Source: Adineta ricciae
Taxonomy: Eukaryota > Rotifera > Eurotatoria > Adinetida > Adinetidae
Direction of reading: 5' to 3'
Assembly (NCBI GenBank): GCA_905250025.1
Contig: CAJNOJ010000467.1
Span: 1 to 64,000, forward strand
Length of the DNA: 64,000 nucleotides
The notes under the pieces were generated by a model. The model did no database searches and had not been told where the DNA came from. It saw only the letters and a list, made by a program, of their open reading frames with translations. Position numbers and translations under genes: made by a program. Of this stretch, positions 1-59,800 are shown piece after piece; within the stretch, counting starts at the first letter, position 1; the number at the start of each line of letters is the position of its first letter.

Positions 1-1135
1 AATTTCCACTGATAATCGGACGATTTTCGATGCCGTTCTTTTCGAGATACTTCAAAAACTCACATCGTTGATGCGTATACGGACGATGCAGAAGAAAGGC
101 TAAGCCGAACCAAGCAGGATCAATCCCTTCCGAAGCTTCCATCAATGACATTAACGATGAAAATCTTTCATCATGTGAAAGACTTTCTCTAATCAGGCGA
201 AAGTTCTCACGACGATGTCGATTGAATTCATCGAGTTTATCTAATTGAACACTCAACATGGCGCCTTGAACTTCTAACGGTCGAAGATTGTAACCCATAT
301 TAACAAATAAAAATCGGCAATCAATATCAGGATATAGATCTTCAATCTGCTGACGATTTGTCAAATGTCTTGTCCAACCATGAGCGCGCAAACAACGGAG
401 GAAGTTGTAATCATCCTCTGTATGACATGTAATCATTCCACCTTCACCACTAGTAATATGATGTGAAAAATAGAATGAAAATGTTCCAAAATCTCCAAAT
501 GTTCCTAACATTTTCCGTTGACTATTTTCATCGATTAAACAATAACTTCCCAACGATTCACATGTGTCTTCAATTAGAAGCAGATTATGTCGTTGAACAA
601 ATTCCATTAATAACTTCATGTTAACCGAGTTTCCGAGCACATGCACAGCCATGATTGCTTTCACATGATTGGTTAATTTGCGTTCGAGTTCGTGAATTGA
701 AATATTGAACGTACGTGGATCAACATCGACGAAAATTGGACGAAGACCATGTTGAATTAATGGAAACACACTTGTCGACCAAGAAACAGCTGGTACGAGA
801 ACATGATCACCTACTTTACAATGTTTTGCTCGCAATTTATTCGCTATTGCTGACACAGCTAATAAATTTGCAGAACTTCCTGAATTGACCATCACAGCAT
901 AAGGTACACCAACAATTTCCGCAAATTTCTTTTCAGCATGCTCAACTTGTTTGCCTAATGTTAATCGACCTGTTAGCAAAACCTCTGTCATAGCTAAAAT
1001 TTCGTCTTCACCAAACGGGTTCATTGCTAATGGAAATAAAACCGATGTATCTTTCGTTTCAGCTAAACGACGAGCCCTCCATTCATTTACAATGCTCGTC
1101 TTCCATTCCGAACACGAGGAAGCTCCACTAGCCAT
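1..1135 (-). CDS. ColD/RfbH-type PLP sugar 3-dehydratase (DegT/DnrJ/EryC1/StrS fold), 3' end outside window
   Basis: An open frame runs from ATG at 1135-1133 to the window edge (378 codons, no stop, no intron). It reads as the DegT/DnrJ/EryC1/StrS aminotransferase fold: GSSANLL phosphate-binding loop, a VPAVSWSTSVFP segment, LLIEDTCESLG (PLP-contacting Asp), then SHHITSGEGGM. In ordinary sugar aminotransferases that last block holds the Schiff-base Lys; here the position is His (residue 225, codon 463-461). This is the hallmark of the ColD and RfbH (E1) dehydratases that remove the 3-hydroxyl of a 4-keto-6-deoxy nucleotide sugar. Downstream blocks DPAWFG and NRPIISGN also match RfbH/ColD proteins. 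The first ~40 residues are an extension. The family is essentially bacterial, so an intronless copy here suggests horizontal transfer. Whether the substrate is GDP- or CDP-linked cannot be told. Family assignment is firm, exact reaction is not. Confidence 0.85.
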   Translation of the reverse strand, partial: MASGASSCSEWKTSIVNEWRARRLAETKDTSVLFPLAMNPFGEDEILAMTEVLLTGRLTLGKQVEHAEKKFAEIVGVPYAVMVNSGSSANLLAVSAIANKLRAKHCKVGDHVLVPAVSWSTSVFPLIQHGLRPIFVDVDPRTFNISIHELERKLTNHVKAIMAVHVLGNSVNMKLLMEFVQRHNLLLIEDTCESLGSYCLIDENSQRKMLGTFGDFGTFSFYFSHHITSGEGGMITCHTEDDYNFLRCLRAHGWTRHLTNRQQIEDLYPDIDCRFLFVNMGYNLRPLEVQGAMLSVQLDKLDEFNRHRRENFRLIRESLSHDERFSSLMSLMEASEGIDPAWFGLAFLLHRPYTHQRCEFLKYLEKNGIENRPIISGN

Positions 1136-1347
1136 GTTCAATAAATGTCTGAAGGTGCAATCAAAATGAATAACGGAGAGCGATGAGAACTTTTTTCTCT
1201 ATTCTATCGATAGTTATGATTTATTTTCATAGTAGCAAGTGGTATTTGAACGCATAAAACGTACACTTCATTAGTGTTAAATTCATCTTAGAGCAATGAG
1301 AGGAACATCAGCGAACGAGAACGAAAGAGAGAAGAATCGAGAAAAAG

Positions 1348-1421
1348 TGACCTTCGCGGGACTCGGACCCACACATTCTGCTATCCGGCCAGATGTCATA
1401 CGCCAGTTAGACTACATGGAC
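1348..1421 (-). tRNA. tRNA-like sequence (tRNA pseudogene or SINE head)
   Basis: Read on the minus strand, 74 nt have tRNA layout: an A-box-like TAGTCTAACTGG, a T arm with stem GTGGG/CCCGC and loop TCCGAGT (B-box-like GGTCCGAGTCC), and a T-run just after the end (about 1342-1346). The acceptor stem pairs at only 4 of 7 positions. The anticodon stem has a mismatch and position 33 is not U. A functional tRNA is therefore unlikely; a decayed copy or Pol III-derived SINE head fits better. Confidence 0.4.
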
Positions 1422-4400
1422 CATCTTAATCTCTAGTATAGCGTTTTGTGATACACCACAAACCCTAACAATCAGCAGCAATCCACTCGCTAGAAAAAGA
1501 AACGGATGTATGATTCGCCTAAGCCCACTCGCTCCCCCGCTCCCGGAATCAAAACTTGTTTTTCTTTCAGAACGCTCATTCTTAGTGAAATCTTGATCGA
1601 ACATGTACCTGACTTTGAGCAGCTTTCAGTGGCAAACTCAGTCAGAAATACTAAGCTTTGGGGCAGTTTCTCTTAGTACCAAGGATAAAAATACCAGCCT
1701 TCGTATATCAACGATTTTCTCACAATATTGATGTCATAGAACTCGGAATAGCGTGAAAATATATGAAATACCTGTTCCTACAGCCCAACAAAACCGTTTT
1801 TTGCGAAACTTGATTTTCTTACGAACAACTAAATGAAAACAAAAGTTTTCACTCTATTAGGCTGCAGTGCTGCATTTTAGCTTCGTTTTCAAACTTGTCC
1901 GAGTGTTCAAACATTTAAAATCGCGAAAGAAATTTTGTCACATCGACCGATGAAATACTTGTGAATTTCGAAAAAACCCTCATCTTTAACACGGCTGATT
2001 GAACACGCGCACGCGAGAGATTTTTCGTGTTTATATAGAACGTAAGAAAATATTAGGATTGAAAATGTCAAGAGAATTAGGCTATATCGAATGATTTCAC
2101 CGAGAAAAATTATCTGACAATGACAAAAATCGAGTTTCTTTGTATTTTGATTGCTTTTCATATATTCTCTCTTCCGTTCAAACTGAGCCATATAGCAACC
2201 GATAAAGCGTGGCTCACTCTACAAAACTGTCTACATGACATTTTCTGTTTGGAGCGAAATTGGCACAAAAAACTCAACTACTTTTTATCTTTGTATTTTC
2301 CAAAGTTGCCGGATTCATCATTTTTTTGTCCGAATGCTATACCGAGAAGCTGATTGCCAAAACTATCCGGCCACTTCCTTGTCGTTTCCAGCTCATGGTT
2401 TACAGGAAATGACTAGAAACCTCGTTTGAAATTCCGGCGGCAGGGAAGTCGTTGAAAAATGAGCTTAGCCAGCCAGAGTCGATTGAACCACAATAATATG
2501 CGAACTTGAAGATTGACAAATAACATCGATTTCGGTGAAAAATCAATATCATGTCACACTTATATTTATAGATTTATTCTCAATTCCTTTGACTGTCTCG
2601 ATTGACCCATAAAGTAATCGGTAGAGCCAGAGCTGCTCTACAAAACGTTATAGTTTCAATCTTTTCATACTGTTCTGAAATACCATTTAGAATATCAAAA
2701 TGTTCAGGCTTAAAGGATAACTTCTATCGGAGCTGGGACTTTTGAGACGACTATGGAAATAGCGTTATCTGCATTTTAGCTTAGAAAGTGTCATATTGTG
2801 GTTCAGCATCTGAAGTCGAGCGAGAAAATTTATTTTGCAGTTGGTTTTCGATTTTTATTTATCTTCGAATCCCCTCCCCCTCCGATGCATCACCCAGGAA
2901 ATTTTTCAGACACAATTCGCTCACAATTAGTATTGTATTAGGCTGTTACTAAAAATATTCCTTTTAAATAACATTTGAAAATATTTTGACGCATGTCGAT
3001 AACTATAGCGTACTTCGGAAGAAGTCCATTGTTCTCCAAAATTGCCTGGATGGGCCATCCAAGGACAACAACACAGCGGAAAAGGTAGAATTCAAAAGTA
3101 TTTGAAAAATACTTTTTCGACTTCAGTTTTTAGCTGACTCTGAATGTGACACTTTAGAAAATAATAGATTAACGAAAGTTGCTGATTGTCGCTCATTATA
3201 ACCGTGAAAAGCGCAGAAGCGAACCCTTATCTGTGATTCTAGAAGAAAGGAGCGCTCTAATATATAAGTTATTATATTAACAAATGCGGAAACTTCGGAA
3301 TTGAGCCGAAAGTTAGGTGTGATGGAAGTAGTCCATTGAATGGAAGACATACGGAGTCATAGAGAGATATCAATACTTTTTCAATAACTCAAGAATTACT
3401 CCTCTAAACAGGCTTATCTTTGAATTCCAGTGAATTTTGATGTAATACGGCGCTATTCAAAATTTCTTCCCAGTCAATAGGCACTCAGAAGCCATGGTGC
3501 AGATAAATGGGACACAGTAGACTTATCGATTATATCAATGCGCTCACCTTTCCAGTGTACCACAACAAAATGATCTCTTAAATCTCTTCTCATTAATGTA
3601 CCGTGCACACCTGGACTATCTTCAATTGAAGCTCAGATTTCAACAAAAAAAAACATGTTTTTGAACATACTTCCATGCGTTACATCACTCAGCACACGTG
3701 GAATGACTTCGTTAACGTGAGTAAATACTGAGATTATTTGGGTAACTTTCACCCAAGTTCGTGAGCTCACACTTACCTCGGTGATGTCCTTTCATTTTCA
3801 CCTTTCACTAAATCTGAGCCGTTCGTGTAAACGTTGGTAACGCTGTCTATAATAGAGATCTATAACTAGTAGATGAGTGGTCTGAGTGAAATACATCCAC
3901 ATAGGCATGTGACAACTCAAGCTCAATAGTTTGTGGGAACTGAATTCATGAACCGAGTAAACAGTTCTGATCCACATGAACTAGAGCTGACTGACAGATC
4001 GGTTCGTAGAAAAAGAACTGGTAAACATTTCTAATTTCATGGATGAAGACTGAGTTGTGACATGCCTATACCCCAATCCTCCTATGGATCATCGTTATGG
4101 TGTTCCCAACTGTATCCTGCCGCTTTCTAAATCGAAGCAGTGATAGTTGATTGTTTGGTGACGTTATCAATGACAAAACCAGTTGGGAAGAGTTAACCTA
4201 GGTTAATCACATTCATCTCTTTATTGGTCTGCCGATATCCATTCGATGTTTTCCTAGGTCTACGAAGTACTGTAAAATTTTGGGCGAGTTTTTCATCACA
4301 AAGCCGGTTGGGCAAAAATTCCACCCAGATCACACCCAAGTCGCCTATGTCTACCCTTCATCGGTAAGCCCAAATTCTCTCCATATTTTGCTGGACAGAA

Positions 4401-4677
4401 GCGCTCACCATGGAAAGTTTGCATGTCATAACTGATAGAGGAAATAAATGTGAAACGAACAGACAAGCAAGCGCATGTGCTCAACTTTCTATATATAAAT
4501 CAAAGAAAATTTTGTTCAAACATAGCAACGGTACACATGATTGTGCTCATTTCCGAAACAGTTGAGGGTACTGACGAAGTGGTTGAGTGTAGGAAATTTC
4601 ATGTCAATCTAATTCTTCTATCGAAAGTTATCGTGAATATGGGCGGCCGGACACACTGGTCGATTTTAATAGTCAAT
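1422..4677. other. Gene-free, repeat-derived stretch
   Basis: No convincing coding region is seen on either strand; open frames are short and lack family resemblance. The stretch includes the left copy of a long inverted repeat (about 1987-2226), a decayed second partial copy near 2600-2665, and otherwise unrecognised AT-rich sequence. Confidence 0.55.
1987..2226 (-). repeat. Left copy of a dispersed inverted repeat (partner at 5994-6233)
   Basis: The reverse complement of this segment matches 5994-6233 over about 240 nt with scattered substitutions. A short open frame starting MAQFERKREYMKSN is kept in both copies. A weaker third match to the outer end lies at about 2600-2665. Probably a decayed mobile-element sequence; no encoded enzyme is recognised. 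Confidence 0.75.
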
Positions 4678-4974
4678 TAGGCATGCAGCAATCCCGATTC
4701 GACTCGATTCCGATTCTAGAATCGAATGGGATTGGTTGGGATTGGCTGGAATTGATCCGAGATAGACTGAAATAGATTACTAATTTTAACTCAGACTAAT
4801 ACTAGTTTCGGACAGTCTTCGTTAATGGCAGACAAATTTCCAGCAACAAGAAGCATTTAGAATTATTTTCCTGTTAAATCTCACATAGTTCTTAACTATG
4901 TCACGTTACTTTCAAATCACATCCAGTCAATCCCATTCGATTCCGATTCTAGAATCGGGATTGGTGCATGCCTA
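4678..4974. mobile_element. hAT-like MITE with 8-bp target duplication
   Basis: A 297-bp element with terminal inverted repeats beginning TAGGCATGCA and continuing CAATCCCGATTC (22 of 23 positions identical between ends). It is flanked by TAGTCAAT (4670-4677) and TAGTCAGT (4975-4982), 7 of 8 identical. An 8-bp target duplication with short TIRs is typical of the hAT superfamily. Both ends are rich in a CGATTCCGATTCTAGAATCG palindrome. No transposase is encoded, so it is non-autonomous. Confidence 0.75.
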
Positions 4975-5290
4975 TAGTCAGTTCCCTCTTGGAGTACACC
5001 AAGAACGGTAGTAATCGAAAGGAACTGTACACCTGCCTATCGATAAAGATATCTTTGCGATAGAGCTTGCTAAAATGTGACTAAATACCACCGGTGGATC
5101 CGATATCGATGCCATCTTGATTTTGATGGTATAGTATTTATCGGGGGTCTATTCCACGCCTGACTACTTGACATGAACACTCAATACATTATTCGACGCA
5201 TAGTTCAACGCCTTACGATATAATTGCATTTGTATGTACTAAGTTTTGAAGTATAATGAATACGCTTTTCAAGTGTCACTAAAAAATTGC

Positions 5291-5914
5291 TAACGAGGGA
5301 ACCACCCGAGGTGATTAATGGGTTTAGATCTCATCTGTTGGTAGTAGATAGTCTTCGATGAGGTATGAAAAACCTCAAGAGGATTCGCGCCCACGGACCT
5401 TTTATCTAGAGTTATAGATGTTTTACTGGAATTTTTGCATATATTTAGGTATCTACCGACGGATCAAATATCAGTCTTTAGAACTGAAACTTTGGTTACA
5501 GATAGGTCTATAGATAGGGACAATGCCCTGAAGATTTCAGCTCTAAAGAAGGCTTCCTTCCGAAGACAATAAGACCTGAAATAAGGAACAGCTCTAGCAT
5601 CTTTCCTAAGATACGGGTGATTTTTTGAAGTCTTAGTATCTTGGGAAGGAAATCTTCTTTAGAGCTGAAATCTTCAGGACATTGTCCCTATCTATAGACC
5701 TATCTTTAACCAAAGTTTCAGTTCTAAAAACTGATATTTGATCCGCCGGTAAATACCTAAATATATACAAAAATTTCAGTAAAACATCTATAACTCTAGA
5801 TAAAAGGTCCGTGGGCGCGAATCCTCTTGAGGTTTTTCATACCTCATCGAAGACTATCTACTACCAACAGATGAGATCTAAACCCGTTAATCACCTTGGG
5901 CGGTTCCCTCGTAA
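5291..5914. mobile_element. 624-bp foldback (long inverted repeat) element
   Basis: Two arms of about 295 nt (5291-5585 and 5620-5914) are reverse complements with scattered mismatches, separated by a loop of about 35 nt. Outer ends read TAACGAGGGAACC and TTACGAGGGAACC. Almost the whole element is stem, so it is a foldback or MITE-type element. No coding potential and no clear target duplication were seen. Confidence 0.8.
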
Positions 5915-5993
5915 GGTTTCCTACGCAAACTGAGTGTTTTGTCATCCTGGATGGCATCTAAAAACTACATGAAACGATTGAAACTATAACATT

Positions 5994-6233
5994 TTGTAGA
6001 GTAAGTCACGCTTTATCGATTTCTACATGGCTCAATTTGAACGGAAGAGAGAATATATGAAAAGCAATCGAAATACAAAGAAACTCGATTTTTGTCATTT
6101 TCAGATAATTTTTCTCGGTGAAATTGTTCGATATAGCCTAATTCTCTTGACCCTTTCAATCCTGACATTTTCTTGCGTTCTGTATAAACACGAAAAATCT
6201 CTCTCTTGCGCGTGTTCAATCAGCTGTGTTTAG
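5994..6233 (+). repeat. Right copy of the dispersed inverted repeat
   Basis: Reverse-complement partner of 1987-2226, carrying the same short MAQFERKREYMKSN frame. With its partner it brackets about 3.8 kb that includes the MITE and the foldback element. Confidence 0.75.
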
Positions 6234-6668
6234 ATATACTCTGATGATTAACACATAAGGAATAAGAATCTCGCGTGTTATAACTTAGTTTAACATTATA
6301 TGATATTCGTCTTCTTTGGAGATCAAAGAACGGAAAAATATTTTTCTTGCACTCTTCGTGGCATCTACGAAATAACATAAAGATCGAAAGGGTAAAAGGA
6401 GATCTTGCGCGGCAATATTTTGGATTTTTATACGGTAAACAATGCCTAAATTTTCATGAGGGCAGATTCAAAATGAGTTGACCCACATGTTTTGACAATA
6501 TTCGATTTTTTCATGGAGGGTTTCTTAGCTATGGGTAAATCTAAGACTAGATACTGTTTTATAAAAGTTGCGATTTTTGCTCTGGGAAGGTGGCTTCTTA
6601 TAAATCTATAGACACTTTTCTTTTCTTTTGTCTCATTAGGCGTTTCAAACGGAAGGAACACTTCCATT
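6234..6668. other. Upstream region of the fusion gene, no feature recognised
   Basis: AT-rich sequence without a credible reading frame. It presumably holds the promoter and 5' leader of the gene starting at 6669, but no clear TATA box or other motif was identified. Confidence 0.4.
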
Positions 6669-9044
6669 ATGTGTACAAATTTAGTCTGCTTCGATGATAT
6701 TTCTCAACAGAATTCCAACACGGTTGTTGTCTTAATCATATACTGTGTTTCGGGAACGTTTTTAACATTATTAAACAAAATTACCGTGACTCTTTTTCCA
6801 TATGCAAATCTTCTTTTGATTATACAGAATACCTTTGCAGTAGTTATGCTGGTCTTTTGTTCGCGATATTTTCGTTCAACATTTGGAGCTCTACCAGCAT
6901 TGAATCGAACGGTGTTACAACTATGGATGCCATTGGTTTTCTTGTTTGTTCTCATGTTAATCTCAAGTTTGAGTGCATTGATCTATGTCAGCGTCCCAAC
7001 AGTGATCGTCATGAGGAATTTAACAAGTCTATTTGTCGCATTTTTGGAGTACATATTTCTAAATCACAAAACCAATCGCCTTTCAATTTTCATTCTACTC
7101 GGAATGCTAGGCGGTGCTGGACTCTTTGCAAAGCATGATTTCACTTTCAATGTTCAAGGTTATGTTTGGTTAGGTGTGAACATAATCAGTACGAGTGTTT
7201 ATCAAATATATATTAAGAAGATCATTCACTTGACTTATTTTGAAAATATTGGATCGATCGGAATGTCTTATTATAATAATTTACTATCACTACCTGTACT
7301 TGGGCTAATAGTTTGTATAACAGGAGAATTAGGAAGGTTGATGGTAAATTTTGACCTTCAACATTCTCAGATGATATTATCGATTAGTCTAATATTAATC
7401 TCCAGTCTTCTGGGGTTTTCCTTAAGTATCTCAGCATTTGCGTTGAACAAATTAATATCTGCGACGTCGATGATGGTGGCGAACAATGTTAATAAATTTT
7501 CGGTGATTGTTCTTAGCGAGATACTTGTCAAATCAACTCTGGATAGTATTGCCTCCGTAGGTGCAATTTCCGTTCTCTTTCTCGGCTGGCTGTATTCGCA
7601 AACGACCACATCAACCTCAAAAATTTGCTTTGCTATTCTTACCATTACTCTTATCATTTTCGCTGCACTTATTGAAACTAAATATATTAAAACCCTTCGT
7701 TTTGATCACGATGATTATTACAAAAACTTCCAGCCGATTATGTACAATCAAACGATATCTTATCGATATCCGATGAAAGCGATCACGCCGATGAAGCAAC
7801 GTCAAGGTTATGACATTTATCGAGAATATCTACCTCGATCGAGTAAAGCGCATCGTTTAACACCGCAAATCGAAGCCCGATCCGCTCAAGATTATCCTAT
7901 TCCCCAAAACTGTCGAAATCGGAATGCATCTATATGGAAAACATGCGATGCTCATCAATGTCAACCTTATACCGGATTAATCAATTGGGATTATCCACAA
8001 AAAACAATATTTGGAGAAAATACCACTGAATTTATCAATCGAATATTAGAAATTGCTTGGGGAACAAATCCGCCGTCGATCGATCTCTACCTGCGCGGTG
8101 GTTGCCATGGCATCATGGAAATGAAGTACCTTTTCGAAAGCATCGAACTATTTTGGCCGAGATTTCTCGGTTCAGTTATCGTCGTACTCGATGTTGGCGA
8201 CGAACCAATTCTGAAATATTTCCTACCGCAACAACCCACGCACCATTATCTTGTTACTTTCGAACATACCCCTTGTTTACCTGGACGAGTATTCAATCAG
8301 TACAGTTATCTGAACATCGATCGACATTCTCATGCTGAATACATCGTCACAATTGATAGTGATTGCGCATTTCATGCGCCAGTCACACCAGATTTGATTT
8401 TTCGTCAAGGAAAAATTATCTTACCGTCATCACGGTCGTACCAACCGGACGTATGGCGTCGATCACTGGAAGCGGTAATGGGCGCAGGAATGTATGATGG
8501 ACATTACATGGTCACACAGCCAGTCACATTCGCTCGCTCAACATTTGCGTCATTTCGGGAATGGTTCTATGAAAACAAAGGCATATGTTACGAAGATCAG
8601 GTAGCACAACTATCACCAGTGTATTATCAGGAATTTTGCTGGATGTGTCAACTTGGCAGTTATTTAGAACGTGGACGCGCAAAAAAAAGTGATTATGACC
8701 AATATTGGTATCAACATTTTGATAATGAATCATTAGAACCAATGATACGATTTGCAATTCACGTTCCTTATGAACCGTTTTCGTCCAGTGCAGTACAATG
8801 CCGAGAAGTGATATGTTATGAAAAAAGTGTTAATGAAATCATCAGACAAGGCCTGTGTCGTGCATTTGGTCCATCGATATTTCCGGTTTGTATGAATAAT
8901 ATCAGTTTTAACTATGTCAACAATGTCACGTTCTCTTATGGACAATTCGAAATCCAAGCAGCGAATAGATCTGCTCGTATTGATGCATTAAATCAATATT
9001 TGAAACGTTTAGCACGTATAACAATGATTTCTTTAGACGATTGA
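6669..9044 (+). CDS. Nucleotide-sugar transporter fused to glycosyltransferase-like domain
   Basis: One intronless frame of 791 aa. Residues ~18-312 form a triose-phosphate/nucleotide-sugar transporter (SLC35/VRG4 type): about ten membrane spans, an early LLNK, MRNLTSLFVAFLEYIFL in the middle, and NNVNKFS (272-278) where relatives carry GALNK/GNLNK for nucleotide binding. An additional span (~320-337) follows, then a ~100-residue linker and a soluble domain (~450-760). In that domain IVVLD lies near 504-508, the DxD-type motif IDSDCAF at 562-568, and later MVTQPVTF, as in GT-A glycosyltransferases using a metal-bound sugar nucleotide. With eleven spans and a cytosolic N-terminus, the transferase domain would face the Golgi/ER lumen, where the imported donor arrives. 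Both halves are normally separate proteins. The transporter call is strong; the transferase call rests on the DxD and general layout. Donor and acceptor are unknown. Confidence 0.8.
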   Translation: MCTNLVCFDDISQQNSNTVVVLIIYCVSGTFLTLLNKITVTLFPYANLLLIIQNTFAVVMLVFCSRYFRSTFGALPALNRTVLQLWMPLVFLFVLMLISSLSALIYVSVPTVIVMRNLTSLFVAFLEYIFLNHKTNRLSIFILLGMLGGAGLFAKHDFTFNVQGYVWLGVNIISTSVYQIYIKKIIHLTYFENIGSIGMSYYNNLLSLPVLGLIVCITGELGRLMVNFDLQHSQMILSISLILISSLLGFSLSISAFALNKLISATSMMVANNVNKFSVIVLSEILVKSTLDSIASVGAISVLFLGWLYSQTTTSTSKICFAILTITLIIFAALIETKYIKTLRFDHDDYYKNFQPIMYNQTISYRYPMKAITPMKQRQGYDIYREYLPRSSKAHRLTPQIEARSAQDYPIPQNCRNRNASIWKTCDAHQCQPYTGLINWDYPQKTIFGENTTEFINRILEIAWGTNPPSIDLYLRGGCHGIMEMKYLFESIELFWPRFLGSVIVVLDVGDEPILKYFLPQQPTHHYLVTFEHTPCLPGRVFNQYSYLNIDRHSHAEYIVTIDSDCAFHAPVTPDLIFRQGKIILPSSRSYQPDVWRRSLEAVMGAGMYDGHYMVTQPVTFARSTFASFREWFYENKGICYEDQVAQLSPVYYQEFCWMCQLGSYLERGRAKKSDYDQYWYQHFDNESLEPMIRFAIHVPYEPFSSSAVQCREVICYEKSVNEIIRQGLCRAFGPSIFPVCMNNISFNYVNNVTFSYGQFEIQAANRSARIDALNQYLKRLARITMISLDD

Positions 9045-30249: not shown

Positions 30250-31131
30250 TTACTTATGTAACAATTTATTTATTATTGATTGTTTAAGTAATGGATTAAA
30301 TTGAAATATTGAGATCATAACAAAAAGAAAAGAAGTACTTCCGAAAATGTACGCTATACGAAAATGATACTTCGGTAGATCACGGAAGATGGATATGAAC
30401 AGCAGGCTTGCATAGACGCATCCAACTCCCATCAAGATGAACACATGTATAAGAATACGTTTGACAATTTCTAATTCTCGCTGTGCACGAATAAACATTC
30501 TTGTTTGTATGATACGGATACGTTTACGTTTTACATGTCGAATTAATTTCAAATACATTCCCGTAATCAATAACAATGGAATAAGATAGATACAAAATGA
30601 AAGATAGATCGATGAGGTCGATATTCGAAGAGGTATTTGACAAACTTGATTGTCAATATTATAGACAATTTCTGTTGTAAATAAAAATACACTAGGAACT
30701 AGGAAACCTAAAATCCATGTCGAAGCGATTATAACAAGCTGATTTTGTAACGATTGCCAGTTTGTACGTTTCGGATGAATAATAGCGTTGTATCGATATA
30801 AGGCTTGGACGAAAAATGAATAATCAAATACTCCACAAGCACTATAAGCAATGTATGCTCGAAGTTTACACAATGAATCTTCAGTTCGAATTTCTTTCAG
30901 ATCATTATTTAGAGCAATTAGAAAACAAACAAGCATGTCAATACCAAATACAATCGAAGATAAACATGAATTAGCAACTAATACCATTATTGGATTTTTT
31001 TTCGACTTTTTGTCGATTAGAATAGTTATTAAGAATAGAGTAGCTAATACAATCCCTAAAGTTGTTAATACAATCGTTGAAATATTCCACACTATCAGTG
31101 ATGGGTCAATGGTCAATTGAGTTAGGTTCAT
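30250..31131 (-). CDS. Divergent 7TM (rhodopsin-like) receptor, paralogue 2
   Basis: 293 aa, single exon, ATG 31131-31129. Same layout as the neighbour at 28960: N-terminal NLT glycosylation site, seven spans, DSLCKLRAY before TM3, LYRYNAIIHP after TM3 (no DRY), NQVCQIPLR in loop 2, a long basic third loop (KRKRIRIIQTRMF) and no NPxxY. The intact frame with conserved spans indicates an active gene from tandem duplication, already substantially diverged from its neighbour. G-protein coupling is plausible but unproven given the altered motifs. Confidence 0.8.
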   Translation of the reverse strand: MNLTQLTIDPSLIVWNISTIVLTTLGIVLATLFLITILIDKKSKKNPIMVLVANSCLSSIVFGIDMLVCFLIALNNDLKEIRTEDSLCKLRAYIAYSACGVFDYSFFVQALYRYNAIIHPKRTNWQSLQNQLVIIASTWILGFLVPSVFLFTTEIVYNIDNQVCQIPLRISTSSIYLSFCIYLIPLLLITGMYLKLIRHVKRKRIRIIQTRMFIRAQRELEIVKRILIHVFILMGVGCVYASLLFISIFRDLPKYHFRIAYIFGSTSFLFVMISIFQFNPLLKQSIINKLLHK

Positions 31132-31643
31132 CGCTTTTAAATGAAAAGAAAATAGAAACCCCTATATAGTAATATATTTCTTGTTGTCAAGCTTACTTCT
31201 TGTTTCAGTTGTCTGTAATATTGTGAGAAAAATCTAAGTGCACGGCATTATAATAAATGTGCTTCTGTAAATTTGCAATTAAATATTTGTGGAAGTATAT
31301 GCTTTCTGACGAGTGTTGGCTAGATCCTCATAAAATATTAACAGTTGCTTAATAGTCTGATTATCGCACAAGATGAATTTTCTTCAACACAATCTGGGTG
31401 TTCAGCGCCAAATTTACTCACTAAAGGTGGAAGGAAATTTTTGCACGATACGATGATCAACTATAATAAGTATGGGATTATGTTAGATAAAACATTTATT
31501 CGAAGCCATTCTTCCGAGCGAATTATAATAACCTTTCGCTTGAATTATTTTTCGACATCATTATGTGATAATGAAGCTGCCTACACATATGCATTTTACT
31601 GAAAAAGAAAATGACTATTACTAATGCAAATAACTATATGAAA
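31132..31643. other. Intergenic, no feature recognised
   Basis: AT-rich; the short plus-strand frame at 31345 has no recognisable similarity. Confidence 0.4.
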
Positions 31644-36652: not shown

Positions 36653-37514
36653 TCAGTAATATTGATGACGCAAATAAAAAGTGACGCTCCTTCCTTCGGC
36701 GACGTCGGCGTATTTATTTATTTTTCAACTTCGAAATAATCATTCAGTCCAACGAAAAAAAGTTGTTCTCACCGTCCACTCCAAAAATAGCTTTAATGTA
36801 TTCATACAGATACGCTTTTTCTATTTGTTAATCATGTCACTGTTGCTTGTACTTCGCTTTCTAGAGCACAATCGTGGGTGGACTAATAGAGTATACACGA
36901 CGCAGAAAATGGAAATTGTATTGCTTCACATTTAATTTTTCCTTCGTTAGATTAAAGTAACCATAAAAAAATGAATGTAACGTACATTTACACAAGATCA
37001 GACACGAAAAACTACTAAAAAAATGACAAAAGATGATGATAAGTGAGTATGGTATATCGAAGGGTTGACAATGTGATTCCATTTCCCAGTTGTAATTCAT
37101 TGAGGAATTCGTAGCGGTTATGTATTGAACATATCAAGAGAAAAAATATCGAAAGTTAAAATGTCCAACACAGAATTCTCGAATCAATGAAAAATTGACA
37201 CTGATGGCGGGGTTGCGGGTGAAGTTGTAACAGGGAGAATGTTGAAGATTAGATTATAGGAGATAGCTACGGTGTCAGTGAGTATGAAGGGTAGTATAGC
37301 GTAGCATGGTGGAACTAAATCTTCATAAAACAAAATATATAAAAGTGAAATAAGCTGCTATTGGTCATCAATGATATTGCCACAATGTTTGATATTTAGT
37401 TAGACTTTTTCCGTTCGATCTTTTCATTGTAAATCTTCGTACCATTCACAAACGGGATAGAACTTGTTCATCCCGTTGTGATGTTATGCCCCTTTTGGTT
37501 ACAATTGATATTCA
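36653..37514. other. Intergenic, no feature recognised
   Basis: No gene is supported. A short inverted pair AACGGGAT/ATCCCGTT lies at 37451-37477. Confidence 0.4.
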
Positions 37515-37655
37515 CGAGACAAATTAAATTAGACAAGAGATCCTTCTCCATCTGTTCCAGCCGCGCCATCATAGGTACTAGTACAAAATTTTGTTAAAAC
37601 TCATACTGAGTAAACAGAAGACATTCGATAATTTCACGTTGATTTCTTTTTTTTT
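37515..37655 (-). pseudogene. Relic of a fifth Ly6-like gene
   Basis: The minus strand reads GAAATCAACGTGAAATTATC where copy C has GAAATCAACATGAAATTACT. The start ATG has become GTG, but the signal-peptide frame (KLSNVFCLL), a following GT donor and an AG acceptor remain. The next piece reads GTDGEG where copy C has GTDGCF, losing the Cys, and soon meets a stop. The rest of the gene was not found. Confidence 0.6.
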
Positions 37656-37956
37656 CTTTAGATGAAGGACGCAACCCTATGAAAATTCTCATTGAGTTCT
37701 TTTGGATTCGTGGTAAATATGGATGACGTCAACGAAATATGAAGTGTTCTTTTTTGCTATCGTCAACGCATTTGTTTACTTTTAATTTTAAAATAATTAT
37801 TTAACTGAAAGAAAGAAGAAATTTCTCTCAGTTCCGTAAATAATGAAAACTGGATAGAGTGTGGGTGTTGATCACCTCACAAAGCACAGATATCATTTAT
37901 TCGATCGACAAACAGAGGTGAGATTAAAGACATTCATGAGGTAATATGCCCAAAAT

Positions 37957-38609
37957 TTATAGATAAAAATTCAATGCCACAACTGAGTTCAGTTGAAGTT
38001 TGACCAAAACAGCAGCAAGAACAAATTGGAAGAGACTTGATATTTGATATTTGCTTGTGACTCCGTTACAATAGTCCGTCATACAGCAGAATGTACCAAC
38101 AGTTCCATCATTAGAACCTGGACAAGTGTAATACGGATATCGAATGGTCGTTAACGAAGTTCCATTAGTGAATTTCTAAATAAAACAAACAGTAATGGTT
38201 TTGTGTATTGTACTAGTTTATTCTTGATTAAGGCTGACATAGTTTCACTAGGTAATATCATTCAAGAGTCCTGCAGTTCTCTCATAGCAGAAGAAATGGA
38301 ATTCCTCTATTTTTGTTACCGACTGATCGTGTTTCAATATGACATTGTCCGTGCACAAAACTCATATTATAGTCTTTGTAAAATTATACGATTTACGACT
38401 CACAACGCAGACATTATTACTGTAGACAGATATACCGCGACCATTTACAGAAAACTGAAAGCATCCATCTGTTCCATATGAACATGAATAGCAGTTGATG
38501 TAAGCCGAACAAGTCGATAATAAGCCTGCGAGAAAAACACAATAAAAGCAGGTTGTCAAAAAACATTATGATTTGTACCAAGTAAAACTATAACGTTCAG
38601 TAATTTCAT
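37957..38609 (-). CDS. Ly6/uPAR-like GPI-anchored protein, copy C
   Basis: Exons 38609-38579 (31 nt), 38525-38404 (122) and 38175-37957 (219); introns 53 and 228 nt; 123 aa. Signal peptide MKLLNVIVLLGLLSTCSA, mature YINCYSCSYGTDGC, late FCCMTDYCNGVTSKYQ. The tail is longer and less typical than in copies A, B and D (ends VVALNFYL) because the shared stop position is lost. Its second intron is four times longer than in its sisters, which may reflect an insertion. The most diverged of the four clustered copies. Confidence 0.8.
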
Positions 38610-38985
38610 GTTGATTTCGTTTTGCTTCAGATGAAACACAGTTCTTGTCGAATTTCGTTGCTTTCTTTTCGATCACTAAGAACTGTTGACGATGTGAATG
38701 ATGATGATGATGACGCACATTGTCGATACATTTTTTTACTTTTCAACACCAGAATAGTGTTGCAAAAGAAAGAGAAAAAAGAGAAGTGTTTGTTGATGGC
38801 GATGTGAATTTCGGTTAACTGATTAAATAGAAAGAGAGATTCGTTTATGTTCGACAAATTTCAGTTCCTGTAAACAACTTAGTTGTGTCTACTTTATTCA
38901 AATAAATAAAGATAATGATTCTGAAAATGAGCACAAATACACACACGCACAGGATTAGCAGTCAGAACTGATCGACACGCGTTGG

Positions 38986-39437
38986 TTAGAGACGTCGATG
39001 CTCAAAGAAAAGAGCAGCAAGAGCAAGTCCTAGCAGAAACGATGGTTGGTATTTTCCTGTGGCCCCATTGCAATAGTCCGTAGAGCAACAAAATAGACTA
39101 GCACTCGAACCACTAGAAGCTGAACAGGCACTAGAACCGCCTCGGTAGGTGCCCGAGGCAGATCCAGTAGTGACTTTCTAAAGAAAATAGAGAAATCTAT
39201 TGTGCTGTGCTGGTAAAGCATCTATTCACATAACAGTTTGTATATAATGAAGTCGTTGATACACCGGCGCCACCTGAACTGAATGGATCGCATCCTGATG
39301 AGCCAGGATTACATACGTAACAGTTAGTAGTCAAGCAAACAGGCAATAAAGCTGAACATACAAAGCTATGTATGCGAAAAGTTAGCGGAGAAACATCAAA
39401 ACTCACCGAGTAGACTGACAATAGCTAGTGAGTTCAT
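38986..39437 (-). CDS. Ly6/uPAR-like GPI-anchored protein, copy D
   Basis: Exons 39437-39407 (31 nt), 39351-39230 (122) and 39177-38986 (192); introns 55 and 52 nt; 114 aa. Signal peptide MNSLAIVSLLALLPVCLT, mature NCYVCNPGSSGCDPFSSGG, late FCCSTDYCNGATGKYQ and a hydrophobic tail (SFLLGLALAALFF). Exon lengths and phases equal copy A. No TATAAAAAGG element is seen at the position used by copies A and B. Confidence 0.85.
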
Positions 39438-40081
39438 TGTATTCGCCGTGAAATGAAGGACGGCGATTGTTGAGTGTCGTTTTTTTCTTAAGTAATAGCA
39501 ACTATTGATGCTGTTGGTAAGGGTGTTGACGTGAATGGAAAGAAACACTTTTCTTTCAATGAAAAGCCTATGCCGATGTACGTTTTTAAAACGAAACAGA
39601 GAATAAAAGAAACAATCATTCGTTTGTTGCGAAGTGTATTTGTCGCGAACTGCTATCGAGTATAATGAAATGGTAATCGTAAGAGGATAGAAAAGAATAC
39701 TAAGTACAAAACGTTGCGATGAACTTGCGCGAGTTTATGTTACGTGCTTACCCACAGGCTATTTTGTCCTGTCTTGAAGGTAATTTAAGCAAAAGAGTGT
39801 GAGTTATTACGGGTAACTTCAGAATTTACTTCAATCTCTTATCTTTTCTAACAAATCGTCGAAAAGAACGATTGCTTTTCATCGAAAATGTCAAAGTAGA
39901 TATTGACGAATAAAACCTTTCGATGCTTCATCGGCACGACGATATACCGCGTAGTGCCAGCGCGTCACTGTTATTGCGTAATACTTGAAAGAAAATATCG
40001 TCATTGAAAAACATGGCGTATAAGGAGTACATAGTGTATATAAATACCGCATTCCGTTTTACTGGTATCGACATTACGAAC
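39438..40081. other. Intergenic, divergent promoter region
   Basis: Lies between the minus-strand Ly6-like copy D and the plus-strand HAD gene; no motif is identified. Confidence 0.4.
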
Positions 40082-42921: not shown

Positions 42922-44438
42922 TCATGTTGCAGTACTATTTTGGAAAAAAATCGCCAAAGAATCAGAAACTGATATCAAGCTAGCTAGGTCTAATTGTCCA
43001 TCTCTATTGAAATCTGCAACGGCAATTGCGCTGATGTCATAATATTCAAATAGCTTGACTTCTCGAAATATTGTATTGCCGTAACCCAGGAGTACATGTA
43101 CAGATCTATCATAACGGTCGACAGCAATTATATCTACGTAATTATCGTAATTCAAGTCTTTCGATATTAACTGAACTGCTCCGGTAATATTCGCGGCTAT
43201 CACCTGAAGTCGAAAAGTACCATTGCCATTATTACATAACAGTTGTATCATTCTGAGTGTCTTATGGCAACTGATTATATCCATATATCCATCGTTGTTG
43301 AAATCTCCAGTAGTAAGGACAGTCAAATTGGCTCCACCTGCTAAGTAACTAACACCGGAAATGAAAGACCCGTCGCCACGACCAAAAAGTATGCTTATGG
43401 TACTATTGCGATAGAATGAAATAGTGATGTCTAAGAAACCATCTCGATTAAAATCAGCAACAACAGCGGACGTTGGACTTCGTGAGGTGGGAAAAGGGAT
43501 TTGCGCACGAAATGTTCCATTGCCGTAGCCCAATAGGATACTAACAAACGATGAATCCATATTGGCGACAACGAGATCTACAAAATTATCTTCGTCGAAA
43601 TAACCTTTATCAATCCAACATGGACTACTACCAACGGGCACATACAATACGGCATCGAAATTTCCGTTGTTGAATCCACGCAGTATCACTAGACGATTGT
43701 CGTCAGCAACAGCAACAATAATGTCATTATAATTATCATTGTTTACATCTGCTATAATGGCGTAGTGAGGGTAAATACCGACTGATACGACGACTTTTGA
43801 GTTAAATCGTCCATCTGGACTGCCAAAGTATACTGCAATTGAATTGTCATAATAATTAGCAACAACAAGGTCAATAACTTCGTCCCCGTTCAAGTAGCCG
43901 CTGGCAATCGAAACGGGATATAATTTCGTACTATATAATTTATCCAAACTGAACATTAACTTCAGGAATGTTTGATCTACGGATGAGAAGATATTAATTA
44001 TTTTCGTCATTCAAAAACATTCACTTTTCCGCGCAACTGATGTACTCAGTTTTGTAGTCATTGACGTTACCATTGTCGTAAAATCTGTGCTTAAACTCGT
44101 TGGTAGTACGTCTATATAAAATATCATTGATTATGTCTTTTCAAATATGTTTCAACTAATACCATCATCTATTTCATCTTCTACAGCTGAAGGTAAGGCA
44201 TTATCCTGCGACTTCTTCAAGATCGATGGTACACAAATAGCCAACGCAAGAGCACATATACCAACCATACATAGTACAAAGATCAAGACTTGTTTCTTCG
44301 TTAAAGCAATTTTACTAAAAGGAAACAAAAAACTGAATGGAGATCAATTTGCGTAACATGTTCTACATACTGAATCGCATTCGTATCGCTCGCCATTACA
44401 AATGTAAGAGGAATATCGTTTTTCCTCTTAGACGCCAT
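42922..44438 (-). CDS. Membrane-anchored FG-GAP/VCBS repeat protein
   Basis: Four exons: 44438-44371, 44314-44163, 44111-44025 and 43976-42922; introns 56, 51 and 48 nt; the frame closes at 453 aa. A short cytosolic part (MASKRKNDIPL) and basic ALTKKQ precede one span (VLIFVLCMVGICALALAICV), making a type II membrane protein. A Thr/Ser-rich stalk from exon 3 (SLSTDFTTMVTSMTTKLST) follows. Exon 4 encodes about seven FG-GAP/VCBS blades with repeated 'DxNxDxxxDI' calcium-loop motifs (DVNNDNYNDI, DFNRDGFLDI, DFNNDGYMDI) and (Y/G)GNGTF ends. This is an extracellular beta-propeller of the integrin-alpha/VCBS type, a family expanded in bdelloids. Binding partner unknown. Confidence 0.85.
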
Positions 44439-45986: not shown

Positions 45987-46586
45987 TTGGAATTTAATAA
46001 TGATCGTTGTACCTTTGAATTGATCGCATTATATACCCCTGTACATTAAACTAATCATGAGAAAGAAACATCAAGGGTTTATGGACGTCCTCGAGTAATC
46101 CGATGTTTATTTTTCATTTTCAACGAAACAATAAACGTTGGATCAGAACTAATGAGAAGTGTATGTGTGAACAATTCAAATTTTTTTCAACAGACAAAAT
46201 CAGTTTCATCTCTATTTTGTACGCACTGTAAAATAGTTTAGTAGAACGTGAAATAATAGGCTTCTATTACTTGCATTATTCATTACTAACACATCAGACG
46301 TATACACTTTCACTTCATGTTCATCAGATGTTTAAAAATAACATATTCTTATGTTTTATATCAACCATACACAGAATGAAAGTAATTTCTTCATTTGTTT
46401 TTCTTGCTCGTTCCGCGCATGAGTCATCATACAATCAGATCTATATTATATACCTGTGTACGTCAGATCAAACATGCGTAAGATGCAAATATCTCCCACA
46501 TACTGGTCATCGATCCATATCATGAGTCATTAGGTAGACATAAAAAGAAGCACGTATACGCACATTTCATATCAGAGGCAAGTGCC
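45987..46586. other. Intergenic, divergent promoter region
   Basis: No gene or repeat recognised. Confidence 0.4.
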
Positions 46587-47528
46587 ATGCATTTCATCTT
46601 TTCATTGTTATTTTCATTTTCGTCGGTATTCATCTCAGTCAGTAGTACTCGAATACCTCGATTCGATCGCGCTGTTTTCTTTGGTGATTCACTGACAGAC
46701 AACGGTAATGTATACAGATTAACAAACCAAACGTGGCCAACCAGTCCTTATTACCAAGGTCGTTTCTCGAACGGTCCTATCTGGGTGGATCAAGTAAATA
46801 TAGCTAACAAAACTGATTATGCTTACGCTGGCGGAACTACAGATAGTAATTTGGTCCAAGGATACACAAAATCAAATACCGTTCCTGTGCCTGGTATAAG
46901 ACAACAGATCTTATCTTATATCAACGATTCGTCACAGACTACGATTAATTATGCTCGAACAATTTATCTCATCTGGGCTGGTGGAAACGATTTACTTTAT
47001 GATCCAACATTGAACGTTACAAGTCTCGTAAATAGTTATTCGAATTGTGTCAGAGATTTAATTGCCCTTGGCGCTCAAAATCTGATTATTTTCAATGCTC
47101 CGCCTATTGAAAAATTTCCATATTTTAGCCAACAAAATCAAATTGCTCTGCAAAGTGCACTGACCAATGCCATCAATACGGCTCTATCTACTAGCATTGG
47201 TACTCTACAAACTACATATTCAAACATTAGCCTACAATTGTATGATATCTACACATTGATGATAAAAATGACTACCAATCAATCGTATCCTTTCGCGAAC
47301 ACGATTGATCCATGTTGGAACACGTACAGCTTAAATAGTACGCGAAATTCCTGCCAAGATCCCTCGAAATATATTTTTCTAGACGACTTTCACATAACAA
47401 GCACAGCACACCAATTGATTGCCGATGAAATCAATTTATTAGTGTCGTATAGTAGTAGTTCGACTAGAACTAGCGCACATCTTGGAGTTTTTTCAATACT
47501 ATGTGCTTTTATGATGATCTTCTGTTGA
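46587..47528 (+). CDS. SGNH/GDSL-family esterase or lipase, secreted
   Basis: 313 aa, intronless. Signal peptide MHFIFSLLFSFSSVFISVSS, then block I FFGDSLTDNGN with the catalytic Ser. Next come GRFSNGPIWVDQ, the DYAYAGG segment, IWAGGNDLL (block III, oxyanion Asn), and block V FLDDFHITSTAH with the Asp-x2-His pair. The set is complete, so activity is likely. The C-terminus is Ser-rich then hydrophobic (GVFSILCAFMMIF), consistent with a GPI anchor. Fungal-type GDSL esterases act on plant cell-wall or lipid esters; the intronless form and FGDSLTDNGN hint at acquisition from fungi or bacteria, not tested. Confidence 0.88.
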   Translation: MHFIFSLLFSFSSVFISVSSTRIPRFDRAVFFGDSLTDNGNVYRLTNQTWPTSPYYQGRFSNGPIWVDQVNIANKTDYAYAGGTTDSNLVQGYTKSNTVPVPGIRQQILSYINDSSQTTINYARTIYLIWAGGNDLLYDPTLNVTSLVNSYSNCVRDLIALGAQNLIIFNAPPIEKFPYFSQQNQIALQSALTNAINTALSTSIGTLQTTYSNISLQLYDIYTLMIKMTTNQSYPFANTIDPCWNTYSLNSTRNSCQDPSKYIFLDDFHITSTAHQLIADEINLLVSYSSSSTRTSAHLGVFSILCAFMMIFC

Positions 47529-56832: not shown

Positions 56833-59800
56833 TTACCAAGCCATTTTGGCTAGAAATGATTTTGGATAACGCCGAACGAAAAATTTCCGTATTTCGTCGA
56901 AAATGAACAACGCTGCACCGAAGCCTATTGCTGGACAAACATATTTCACTTCAACAGGTTCTGTTTTGAAGACTGAATTAAACCATGGAACTAATGTCAA
57001 AATAAGGCCAACTGTAGCCGAAAAGATGATACCGATTAGAATCGTCCAATTACGTGCTTTGCCGTAGAATGGATTGTGTTGAAAGAATGAAACGTGCCGA
57101 GTCCGCGTTGTAAGTAAATTAAACATTTGCATAACACACAATGCGACATAATAAATACATTGACCATTTTGTTGAATAATGGTAAGTTCATCGGTGGTTT
57201 TATTAATCGGTGGGTTCGTACCATAATCGCCATAAGTGAAGAAGATACTGCTTAAAGGAATATCTATGAAAATATTGAAATCATTTTCATGTGAATGATT
57301 AGTTGTTTTCTTTCATGTTTACTTTGAGCTGAGTAATACCAAAAGAAACAGAAGAATGCGGCGAAACATTCGATATTACCGACGACCAAATAGGCGTGTA
57401 CGAGTAATTTCCAATCGAGTAGATGGGTTTTATGGCGAATAGCGGGTGCACGAGACATAATATCGTGTTCAGCTTTCTCGGAAACCATAGCTAATGAATT
57501 CACCACATCGTTGAGCATGCAGAAAATGATGGCTAGAAAGAGAGATAGTGAAAGTGGGATGCCAAGCCATGTTGCAAAGAATACAGGAATGACTTCAGAC
57601 CATGAACCTAAAATGATTTCATATGTTTTGTTTTTTTGTAAATCAAACTTTCTTCGAAAAACTACCTCCCGGCAATAGGTAGATGGCGACTTTTTTCAAA
57701 TTATCACTGAGTAATCGACCGGTTTCAATCGCTTTGATAATGGATGAAAAATTATTATCAAGTAAGATCATATCACCGGCTTCTTTAGCTACATCGGTTC
57801 CAGCTGCCATTGCGACACCTAGATCAGCTTGCTTGAGTGCAGGTGCATCGTTGGTTCCATCACCGGTGACTGCAACAACTTCACCACGTTTAGAAAATTC
57901 CATGACAATGCGTAGCTTCTGTTCGGGTGATGTGCGAGCAAAAACCATCTCTTGATGAGACAATACCCAATTCCACATATAGTCCTAAAACAATTGAAAC
58001 TGAACATCCCTCTGACTTTCGCGCATATTCAACTTACATCCATTGAGTTTATGTCGTTACCTGTTACAATAACAGCATATGGAATGAGTTTAAGTTTATT
58101 GACATCTTTAGCTTGATTTGGATCTTGTAAGTAGAATAATAAACTCATCCACATTCGTTTGAAAACATTTGATTTAACTTGTGAATTCGAGGTCGTTTTA
58201 ATACCCTTAGTATCGATTGATGTCTTGATATCACTTATAATATGACTTTCGAGTGAGGTTCGTTTATTACGCATGAAATGAGCTTGTGGACGACCCGTTG
58301 GATTCTGCAGTTCCATTTTGAACGAATCAATACCACCGTCGATGCTGACTTCTTTGGAGAAGATATTCACTTTCTTCGCAATAGCCGCGGCAGTCGTGGG
58401 ATGATCACCTGTCACCATGGCAACACGGATGTGAGCACGACGGGCTTTGACAACAGCATCGGGTACTTCTGGACGAGCTGGGTCAAGTAAAGAAAACATA
58501 CCTAAATTCATTCAAATGTTAGCTTTCTTTGTTACACATTAGCATGAAATATTTACTTACCTATAAAACAATAATTATTCGATGGTAAACCATTCAGGTC
58601 AGGCTCGTCAGATATGATTGCTTGTTGATTTTGTCGTTGAAGTTTACTTTCGCGATATTCTTCAATAATACGATCGTACTGAGATTTCGGCATTCTCTGT
58701 TGCAGCATAGCAATAACTCGATAGCCAGATTTACCAAGTTCTTCTTGTCGTTCTTGGATCGTATTTCGGAATTCCTCGGTGATTGGTAAAGCTTCATCGG
58801 TATCGTCTTGCTTATAAGTTGAACATCGAGAGAGAACGAAATCCGGTGCACCTTTGAGTGTGATAAGTACCGTGTCATCGGTATTGGTGTCAGCAGACGT
58901 TTTTTCAAGAAGATTTGCGGTAATCATGAACTTATTCTTGGAATTGAATGGTACACTATTAATACGTGGATTCACTTGTTTCATTCGCTCGATGTCGACT
59001 GAGCATTTGTCCGTACATAAACGATACAACGCTACATCAGCTGCGTCTCCAACCAATTGTATGGCGTCATCAGCAGCAGCTTCCTCGACGTGACCGCCAT
59101 TGATAGCCGATTGCTTAGCGGCATTGTTACAAAGACACGAGCCAAAAATCAGATCTTTCATAGCACCGCAAGTAGCAGCTGAATCTAACGATGATCGTTT
59201 TCGATCGTTTGACGACGGTTGATTTTCGACTTTGTTGCTATGGATAGGAACCAAGTATTCTCCCTGCTTTCCCCAGAGAAGTGCTGTGATTGTCATTTGA
59301 TTCATTGTTAATGTACCTGTTTTATCGGTGGCGATGACCTATTGCATTACATAATAAATATTTTTAAAAGAGGAATCACAATTGAACTTACCGAAACAGA
59401 ATTAAATGTTTCCACAGTTGCCAAAGCTTTCACCATCACTTTCTGTTTATACATACGCTTGGCAACGATAGTTAGTACAAGAGTCACCGCAGCTGGTAAG
59501 CCTTCAGGAATAAAACACACAATCATACCAATCGAGTTTACAATATTTCCTACAAAAACAAGATCATATGAGCTGACAAATAATAATTGCTAACCGTTGA
59601 CAGTAACGAATCCCTTTTCTTTTATGTTTAACCAAGCACCCCATGTTATCCAAAGGAGAATAACAGATATGAATGCAGCAATAATGACAAACAGCACAAA
59701 GCGATTAATTTCGCGGTGAAGTCCTGTTATTTCTGATTCGCCAGTACCACGAGTCAGTTTACCCACTTGGCCAAGAACAGTTGCATCCCCAATGTTCACT

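Follow-up and report, generated by a model that had tools for sequence, protein, structure and literature searches.

Two Divergent Genes at a Contig End

The stretch of DNA analyzed here (the window) comprises 64,000 nucleotides of the rotifer Adineta ricciae, i.e., positions 1–64,000 of contig CAJNOJ010000467.1 (C467) in a 130-Mb assembly of 1033 contigs. At its left end lies a minus-strand open reading frame (ORF) that starts with an ATG at 1135 and is still open at window position 1, the very first base of the 65.9-kb contig. Its product is a His-type sugar 3-dehydratase of the DegT fold: Pfam DegT_DnrJ_EryC1 matches it with 237.6 bits, and the motif FSHHITSGEGG, whose first His is residue 225, is found both here and in the complete copy A described below. 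The Pfam scan of the window took in 10 of its 63 ORFs of at least 100 amino acids (aa), plus the dehydratase ORF. An earlier note on this window had proposed a bacterial-type 3-dehydratase, with His at the position of the aminotransferase Lys, in an animal genome; the motif, the tree and the copies on several contigs bear this out. The observation is real and not a product of chance, since several copies exist in a 130-Mb genome and synonymous change among them lies far above replacement change.

The gene extends beyond the contig end. Two complete copies are located on the 310.8-kb contig C114, at 37292–39583 (copy A) and 58969–61260 (copy B), each a single 763-codon frame from ATG to TGA, and past residue ~430 the encoded proteins run on into an Epimerase/GDP-L-fucose-synthase domain, a short-chain dehydrogenase/reductase (SDR). 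A 3-dehydratase and a GDP-L-fucose-synthase (GFS)-like SDR are fused here in one 763-aa protein, whose gene is intronless. A further copy on C802 retains the first 182 dehydratase residues and the entire SDR, the middle being absent around a single N, perhaps through a deletion or an error of assembly. C256 opens with the final 48 residues of one more copy and may hold the other side of the gap at C467. Between copies A and B, the ratio of replacement to synonymous change (dN/dS) is 0.135; the window gives 0.122 and 0.133 against these two copies, and the C802 pieces give 0.114–0.134. The fusion is under purifying selection (dN/dS 0.11–0.14).

The features of the locus are the following:

2–1135 (−): His-type DegT-fold sugar 3-dehydratase, first 378 aa of the dehydratase–SDR fusion; ATG at 1135, His225, truncated by the contig end
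1136–1226 (no strand): fusion-side part of the ancestral divergent 5′ region, homologous to the C114 copies
1227–6599 (no strand): insertion between the two genes, absent from the C114 copies and largely common to C802
6669–9044 (+): partner gene, GDP-mannose-transporter-like with an extra hydrophobic segment and a GT-A-like domain; 791 aa from ATG, TGA stop
6669–7661 (+): transporter part of the partner (Pfam TPT, GDP-mannose transporters in the PDB, YYNN and NK motifs)
7662–9041 (+): putative luminal glycosyltransferase part (TIDSD, DxD-like; weak DUF6492 match)

The partner gene is open in four copies (C467, C802 and two on C114), always divergent from the dehydratase gene, and its dN/dS is 0.16–0.26 among the window and the two C114 copies. 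Window positions 1–1226 align at ~93% with both C114 copies, where the two ATGs are ~260 bp apart. The spacing of 5.5 kb in the window is due to the insertion, which carries inverted repeats at 1988–2226/5992–6230 (239 nt, 92%) and 5290–5584/5621–5915 (295 nt, 94%). The earlier note was right about the dehydratase at this locus, while the fusion with the SDR and the ORF at 6.7 kb as its conserved divergent partner lay outside its view. Decayed relatives of both genes, again divergent, are located at C122:102347–106243 (L017; ~50% identical for the dehydratase and 28% for the transporter), where they flank an open 533-aa GT61-like ORF. Their arrangement suggests that the two genes were paired before the present copies arose.

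No prokaryotic dehydratase–SDR fusion was recognized among the matches in 60 of 368 genomes (E ≤ 1e-60; at most two candidates scored per genome), nor among the matches in 0 of 28 and 4 of 301 genomes at E ≤ 1e-70, and a viral-contig scan with the fusion as query found no relative. In one genome (G322; L064 403–2655), a dehydratase and an SDR gene share a frame in the order of the rotifer fusion, with one TAA between them; reading this locus as a fused frame of 751 codons was rejected, since translation reveals the separating TAA.

Placement of the Dehydratase

The best PDB match of the window dehydratase is E. coli ColD (242 bits), followed by RfbH/E1 (~210 bits). The top NCBIfam model is RfbH, whose score of 282.9 bits is far under the cut-off of 423, so the enzyme is related to RfbH but not identical in kind. 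We built a maximum-likelihood tree of 50 rows from fetched sequences (3 rotifer and 47 other; the aminotransferase-like L032 was dropped beforehand). The rotifer rows form a branch of their own (100/100) with two Bdellovibrionota proteins inside the His-type group. Apart from this branch stand the E. coli ColD clade, RfbH (100/100) and the four Lys-type rows (99/96). The nearest bacterial sequences are 50–51% (L024/L009) and 46–47% (L062) identical to the rotifer dehydratase. The search of genome contigs was seeded with exact peptides, which explains why just three relatives surfaced. Ahead of the EGG, the 47 non-rotifer rows present His-His in 41 cases, a single His in 1, Lys in 4 and no such motif in 1.

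A Lys-type aminotransferase is rejected by this tree, and the grouping with such enzymes that the earlier note had named as a risk did not appear, all four Lys-type rows being excluded from the rotifer group. The iron–sulfur signature of RfbH/E1, which we take to be C-X57-C-X-C-X7-C, was found in 3/50 rows, exactly the RfbH rows, and in none of the three from the rotifer; RfbH/E1 is accordingly rejected on account of both its separate clade and the missing [2Fe-2S] cysteines. ColD proper is rejected too, as the rotifer rows fall outside the clade of the E. coli enzyme. Of the ColD/RfbH identity proposed earlier, what holds is the His-type 3-dehydratase; the enzyme is distinct from both ColD proper and RfbH and belongs to its own branch with the two Bdellovibrionota proteins. 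E1 and SpnQ are reported to carry a [2Fe-2S] cluster, while ColD has none and frees its product by hydrolysis with no reductase (PMC8987622).

A Reductase Domain of Apparently Different Origin

Human and Naegleria GFS match the SDR domain with 188–190 bits and the E. coli enzyme does so with 96; the domain is ~34% identical to human GFUS. In a tree of 32 rows from fetched sequences (L092_2992 and L095_5055, unlike GFS and with no Cys/His pair, were dropped beforehand), it groups (100/99) with three eukaryotic enzymes, two uncultured large-phage sequences and one Azospirillum sequence, and not with the ColC-type SDRs adjoining bacterial dehydratases. Constraining it to the three eukaryotic enzymes alone was not rejected (p = 0.446, approximately unbiased test). 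With the dehydratase beside Bdellovibrionota and the SDR beside eukaryotic-type GFUS, the two halves appear to come from different sources and the gene to be chimeric.

All three SDR copies retain the reductase Ser, Tyr and Lys. In the same three copies, the epimerase residues are replaced, Cys109 by Val and His179 by Pro (E. coli numbering; Cys116 and His186 in human). Both residues are kept in 27 of the 29 other rows; the exceptions are Azospirillum B510 (Gly/Pro, and no catalytic Tyr) and one phage sequence (Cys/Pro). Among SDR rows hand-picked from dehydratase loci, 19/21 have the Cys/His pair, and the two that do not are not GFS-like. The rotifer also has a native, intron-bearing GFUS on C46, which, spliced by eye, has both Cys and His. 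In human GFS, Cys116 is the base and His186 the acid of epimerization, and Tyr143 serves C4 reduction; with Cys116Ser, C4 was reduced before C5 was epimerized in ~70% of the product (PMC12362431).

The Partner Gene

Residues 22–310 of the partner cover nearly the whole Pfam TPT model, which scores 33.2 bits on the transporter part alone (cut-off 30) and 29.5 in the whole ORF. The top PDB matches are GDP-mannose transporters (E 5.9e-20). The YYNN and NVNK of the partner align with the guanine-recognizing asparagines of FYNN and with the Lys of GALNK, motifs whose roles have been described (PMC6789118). The N-terminal part thus looks like a GDP-sugar transporter and is predicted to be Vrg4-like.

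A strongly hydrophobic segment at residues 319–337 follows the transporter, and after it come ~445 aa in which TIDSD is invariant. DUF6492 matches weakly in 3/3 copies scanned (best E 0.00068; for the window copy E 0.012 and 15.1 bits, the cut-off being 22.9). Transporters of this family have ten transmembrane (TM) segments with both ends cytosolic; an eleventh would place the C-terminal domain in the lumen, where it might, on this weak match, be a GT-A transferase. As a query, the putative transferase domain gave no relative in viral contigs, nor by tblastn in plasmids and phages; a PDB profile search with three copies gave nothing better than E 0.5, and PHROGs gave weak matches only. PF20102 was found in none of 357 genomes from the phylum to which G001 belongs, a search in which the positive control gave no signal.

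Genomic Context

The first kilobase has a GC content of 0.38, which does not stand out from the 0.33–0.41 seen across the window. Neighbors in the window include a Pfam match to rhodopsin-type G-protein-coupled receptors (GPCR) and a sub-threshold match to Integrator subunit 5, and copy A on C114 is adjoined by LDL-receptor-type and EGF-type domains. A GT25-like gene lies tail to tail with the fusion (L015 1245–2234(−), C114:61245–62234). It is open beside copy B, has four stops at C802 and is broken into fragments lying in different frames at copy A and C256; its dN/dS is 0.40 (copy B versus C802). This gene is decaying, which indicates that the constraint on the fusion is not local background. 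As a core member of the module it was rejected, being broken beside the three other copies examined and with that dN/dS.

It could be argued that the fusion is a bacterial contaminant at a contig end, or a dead insertion, as the window copy stops where the contig stops, the C802 copy is missing a portion of its dehydratase around a single N, and a degenerate relative exists on C122. However, copies sit on C802 and within a 310.8-kb contig, where LDL-receptor-type and EGF-type domains adjoin, and in four copies the gene is paired with an intact transporter gene of eukaryotic type. A dead insertion fits poorly with a dN/dS near 0.13 although the neighboring GT25-like gene decays. We consider this explanation very improbable. 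Contamination in particular was rejected, the copies on C467, C802 and the 310-kb C114 each having the partner gene; the location in the animal genome, for which contamination of the contig end had been named as a danger, is upheld by these copies, their eukaryotic-type neighbors and purifying selection.

Farther along the window are GPCR, FG-GAP-repeat and GDSL-lipase ORFs at 30253–31161(−), 42925–44010(−) and 46482–47525(+), respectively. ARAGORN found no tRNA.

A Proposed Route to a 3,6-Dideoxy Sugar

We hypothesize that the two genes constitute a chimeric, partly horizontally acquired animal module for 3,6-dideoxy-sugar glycosylation, with a probability of roughly 60%. Substrate, product, topology and transferase activity are predicted as follows. 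The animal's own GMD would convert GDP-mannose to GDP-4-keto-6-deoxymannose. The N-terminal domain of the fusion would then strip the C3 hydroxyl by means of pyridoxamine/pyridoxal phosphate (PMP/PLP) and His225, in the ColD manner, with no iron–sulfur cluster or E3 reductase, and the C-terminal SDR would use a pyridine nucleotide to reduce the C4 ketone. With the Cys/His epimerase pair of the SDR gone, no C5 epimerization is expected, and the product would be GDP-3,6-dideoxy-D-mannose (GDP-tyvelose), not GDP-L-colitose: on stereochemical grounds, same-handed C4 reduction of the 3-deoxy ketone with no inversion at C5 should give 3,6-dideoxy-D-mannose, i.e., tyvelose. The transporter domain of the partner would bring the GDP sugar into the Golgi, and its C-terminal domain, luminal by way of the eleventh TM segment, would transfer the sugar to a glycan. 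That the product is a C5-unepimerized sugar of tyvelose type we favor tentatively, at slightly less than even odds. The fullest version of the proposal, in which one protein (a bacterial dehydratase joined to an epimerase-stripped eukaryote-type fucose synthase) is a GDP-tyvelose synthase and another is a Golgi transporter–transferase, is rather doubtful.

For the supply of substrate, GMD exon-like matches are found on C18, C24 and C35, no single piece being over the family cut-off. Precedents for the pathway come from bacteria, archaea and phages: gmd, an SDR and a His-type dehydratase form cassettes in a Synechococcus phage and on plasmids of Paracoccus, Chelatococcus and Haladaptatus, the last with a non-GFS SDR. 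In Synechococcus phage ACG-2014f (KJ019098.1, L094 2018–5931), gmd, a GFS-like SDR, the His-type dehydratase (annotated as hypothetical) and a GT11 gene stand in a row, likely a cassette of GDP-colitose type in a cyanophage. On the Haladaptatus plasmid (L092 2992–5161), gmd and the dehydratase accompany a non-GFS SDR with no Cys/His pair; perhaps another unepimerized dideoxyhexose is made there. Two ORFs of 675 and 702 aa on rotifer contig C652 (L051/L052) show weak partial matches to the GFS model and are possibly other fused sugar enzymes.

Several observations weigh against the proposed module. Human GFS with Cys116Ala had no detectable activity with the normal substrate (PMC12362431), so loss of the Cys alone makes no working reductase, and the rotifer domain must have adapted. 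The rotifer copies are close kin and do not represent three independent losses of the Cys/His pair, and in the Azospirillum row with no such pair the catalytic Tyr is gone as well. The scanned ORFs flanking the nearest bacterial relatives (L009/L024 and L062) include neither a gmd over cut-off nor a GFS-like gene, and L009 lies near a heptose-7-phosphate-kinase-like (HddA-like) gene; the ancestral substrate may therefore differ. For the putative transferase domain, single-sequence AlphaFold gave a predicted local distance difference test (pLDDT) score of 35.6, and the Pfam match is sub-threshold.

Two other products have to be weighed. The fusion could yield GDP-L-colitose, as ColD and ColC do together, if other residues of the SDR carried out C5 epimerization. 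Colitose is 3-deoxy-L-fucose, and as a matter of general knowledge ordinary fucosyltransferases might accept it; the two-step logic matches that of colitose cassettes, and 19 of the 21 hand-picked SDRs from dehydratase loci are GFS-like with Cys/His. However, Val and Pro, with no acid/base function, replace Cys109 and His179 in 3/3 copies, and the rotifer SDR falls outside the ColC-type group, which makes colitose unlikely. It is also conceivable that the dehydratase acts on another nucleoside diphosphate (NDP)-4-keto sugar, such as a heptose, or that the SDR serves another step, the product being some other 3-deoxy sugar. The closest bacterial homologue found (51%) lies near HddA-like heptose kinase and GalE/RmlB-like genes, and the rotifer SDR is merely ~34% identical to human GFUS, yet a GFUS-type SDR and a partner of GDP-mannose-transporter type both indicate a GDP-linked hexose, and GMD-like exons for the expected substrate are present in the genome. 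We regard this possibility as quite unlikely.

Relation to Known Systems

The earlier note held that an animal making a 3-deoxy sugar would be new, which overstates the case. De novo synthesis of ascarylose is known from C. elegans, and a gene responsible for it has been reported from studies of egg-shell formation, its mechanism still being open (PMC6719183); a beetle incorporates labeled glucose into ascarosides (PMC4974635); and Trichinella N-glycans bear tyvelose (PMC6272458). That bdelloids have foreign genes in their nucleotide-sugar metabolism is generally known: a transcriptome study found 23 of the 47 enzyme numbers of the nucleotide-sugar map to be alien, and its main text makes no mention of aminotransferase, fucose, DegT or deoxy (PMC3499245). 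The literature searched, to which supplements and most subscription journals did not belong, did not contain the dehydratase–SDR/transporter–transferase architecture, and no tyvelose gene turned up in the literature listing. What the rotifer locus offers is a specific and testable candidate two-gene pathway with a predicted substrate, product, compartment and transfer step. If the module acts as proposed, it would show a metazoan gaining a new surface monosaccharide through gene transfer and fusion. It would also give a candidate genetic basis for an animal 3,6-dideoxyhexose via GDP-mannose, the biosynthetic steps in nematodes and Trichinella not being worked out in the literature consulted. 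If the product is tyvelose, the animal would have a complete route to it that passes through GDP-mannose, whereas Salmonella and Yersinia use a CDP route; this would also be a clue to how tyvelose could arise in other animals.

With ColD, the rotifer enzyme shares the dehydratase fold, the active-site His and the absence of a [2Fe-2S] signature. The ColD and ColC pair of bacterial O-antigen synthesis has a GFS-like second enzyme and a matching order of steps, but in the rotifer the enzymes are fused in one animal protein, the dehydratase belongs to a separate branch, and the SDR, unlike ColC, is of eukaryotic GFUS type with no Cys/His pair. RfbH/E1 is likewise a His-type 3-dehydratase of the DegT fold, though the RfbH rows carry C-X57-C-X-C-X7-C and the rotifer rows do not. 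GFUS/TSTA3 shares the SDR fold and Ser-Tyr-Lys (~188 bits to human GFUS), whereas the rotifer domain has lost the epimerization Cys/His, is fused to a dehydratase and is intronless, in contrast to the native GFUS on C46 with its introns. Yeast Vrg4 and the fungal GDP-mannose transporters share with the partner the TPT fold and the GALNK Lys; the partner has YYNN for FYNN and adds the eleventh hydrophobic segment and a transferase-like C-terminal domain of ~445 aa. Trichinella tyvelose and nematode ascarylose, finally, are like the predicted rotifer product in being 3,6-dideoxyhexoses of animals.
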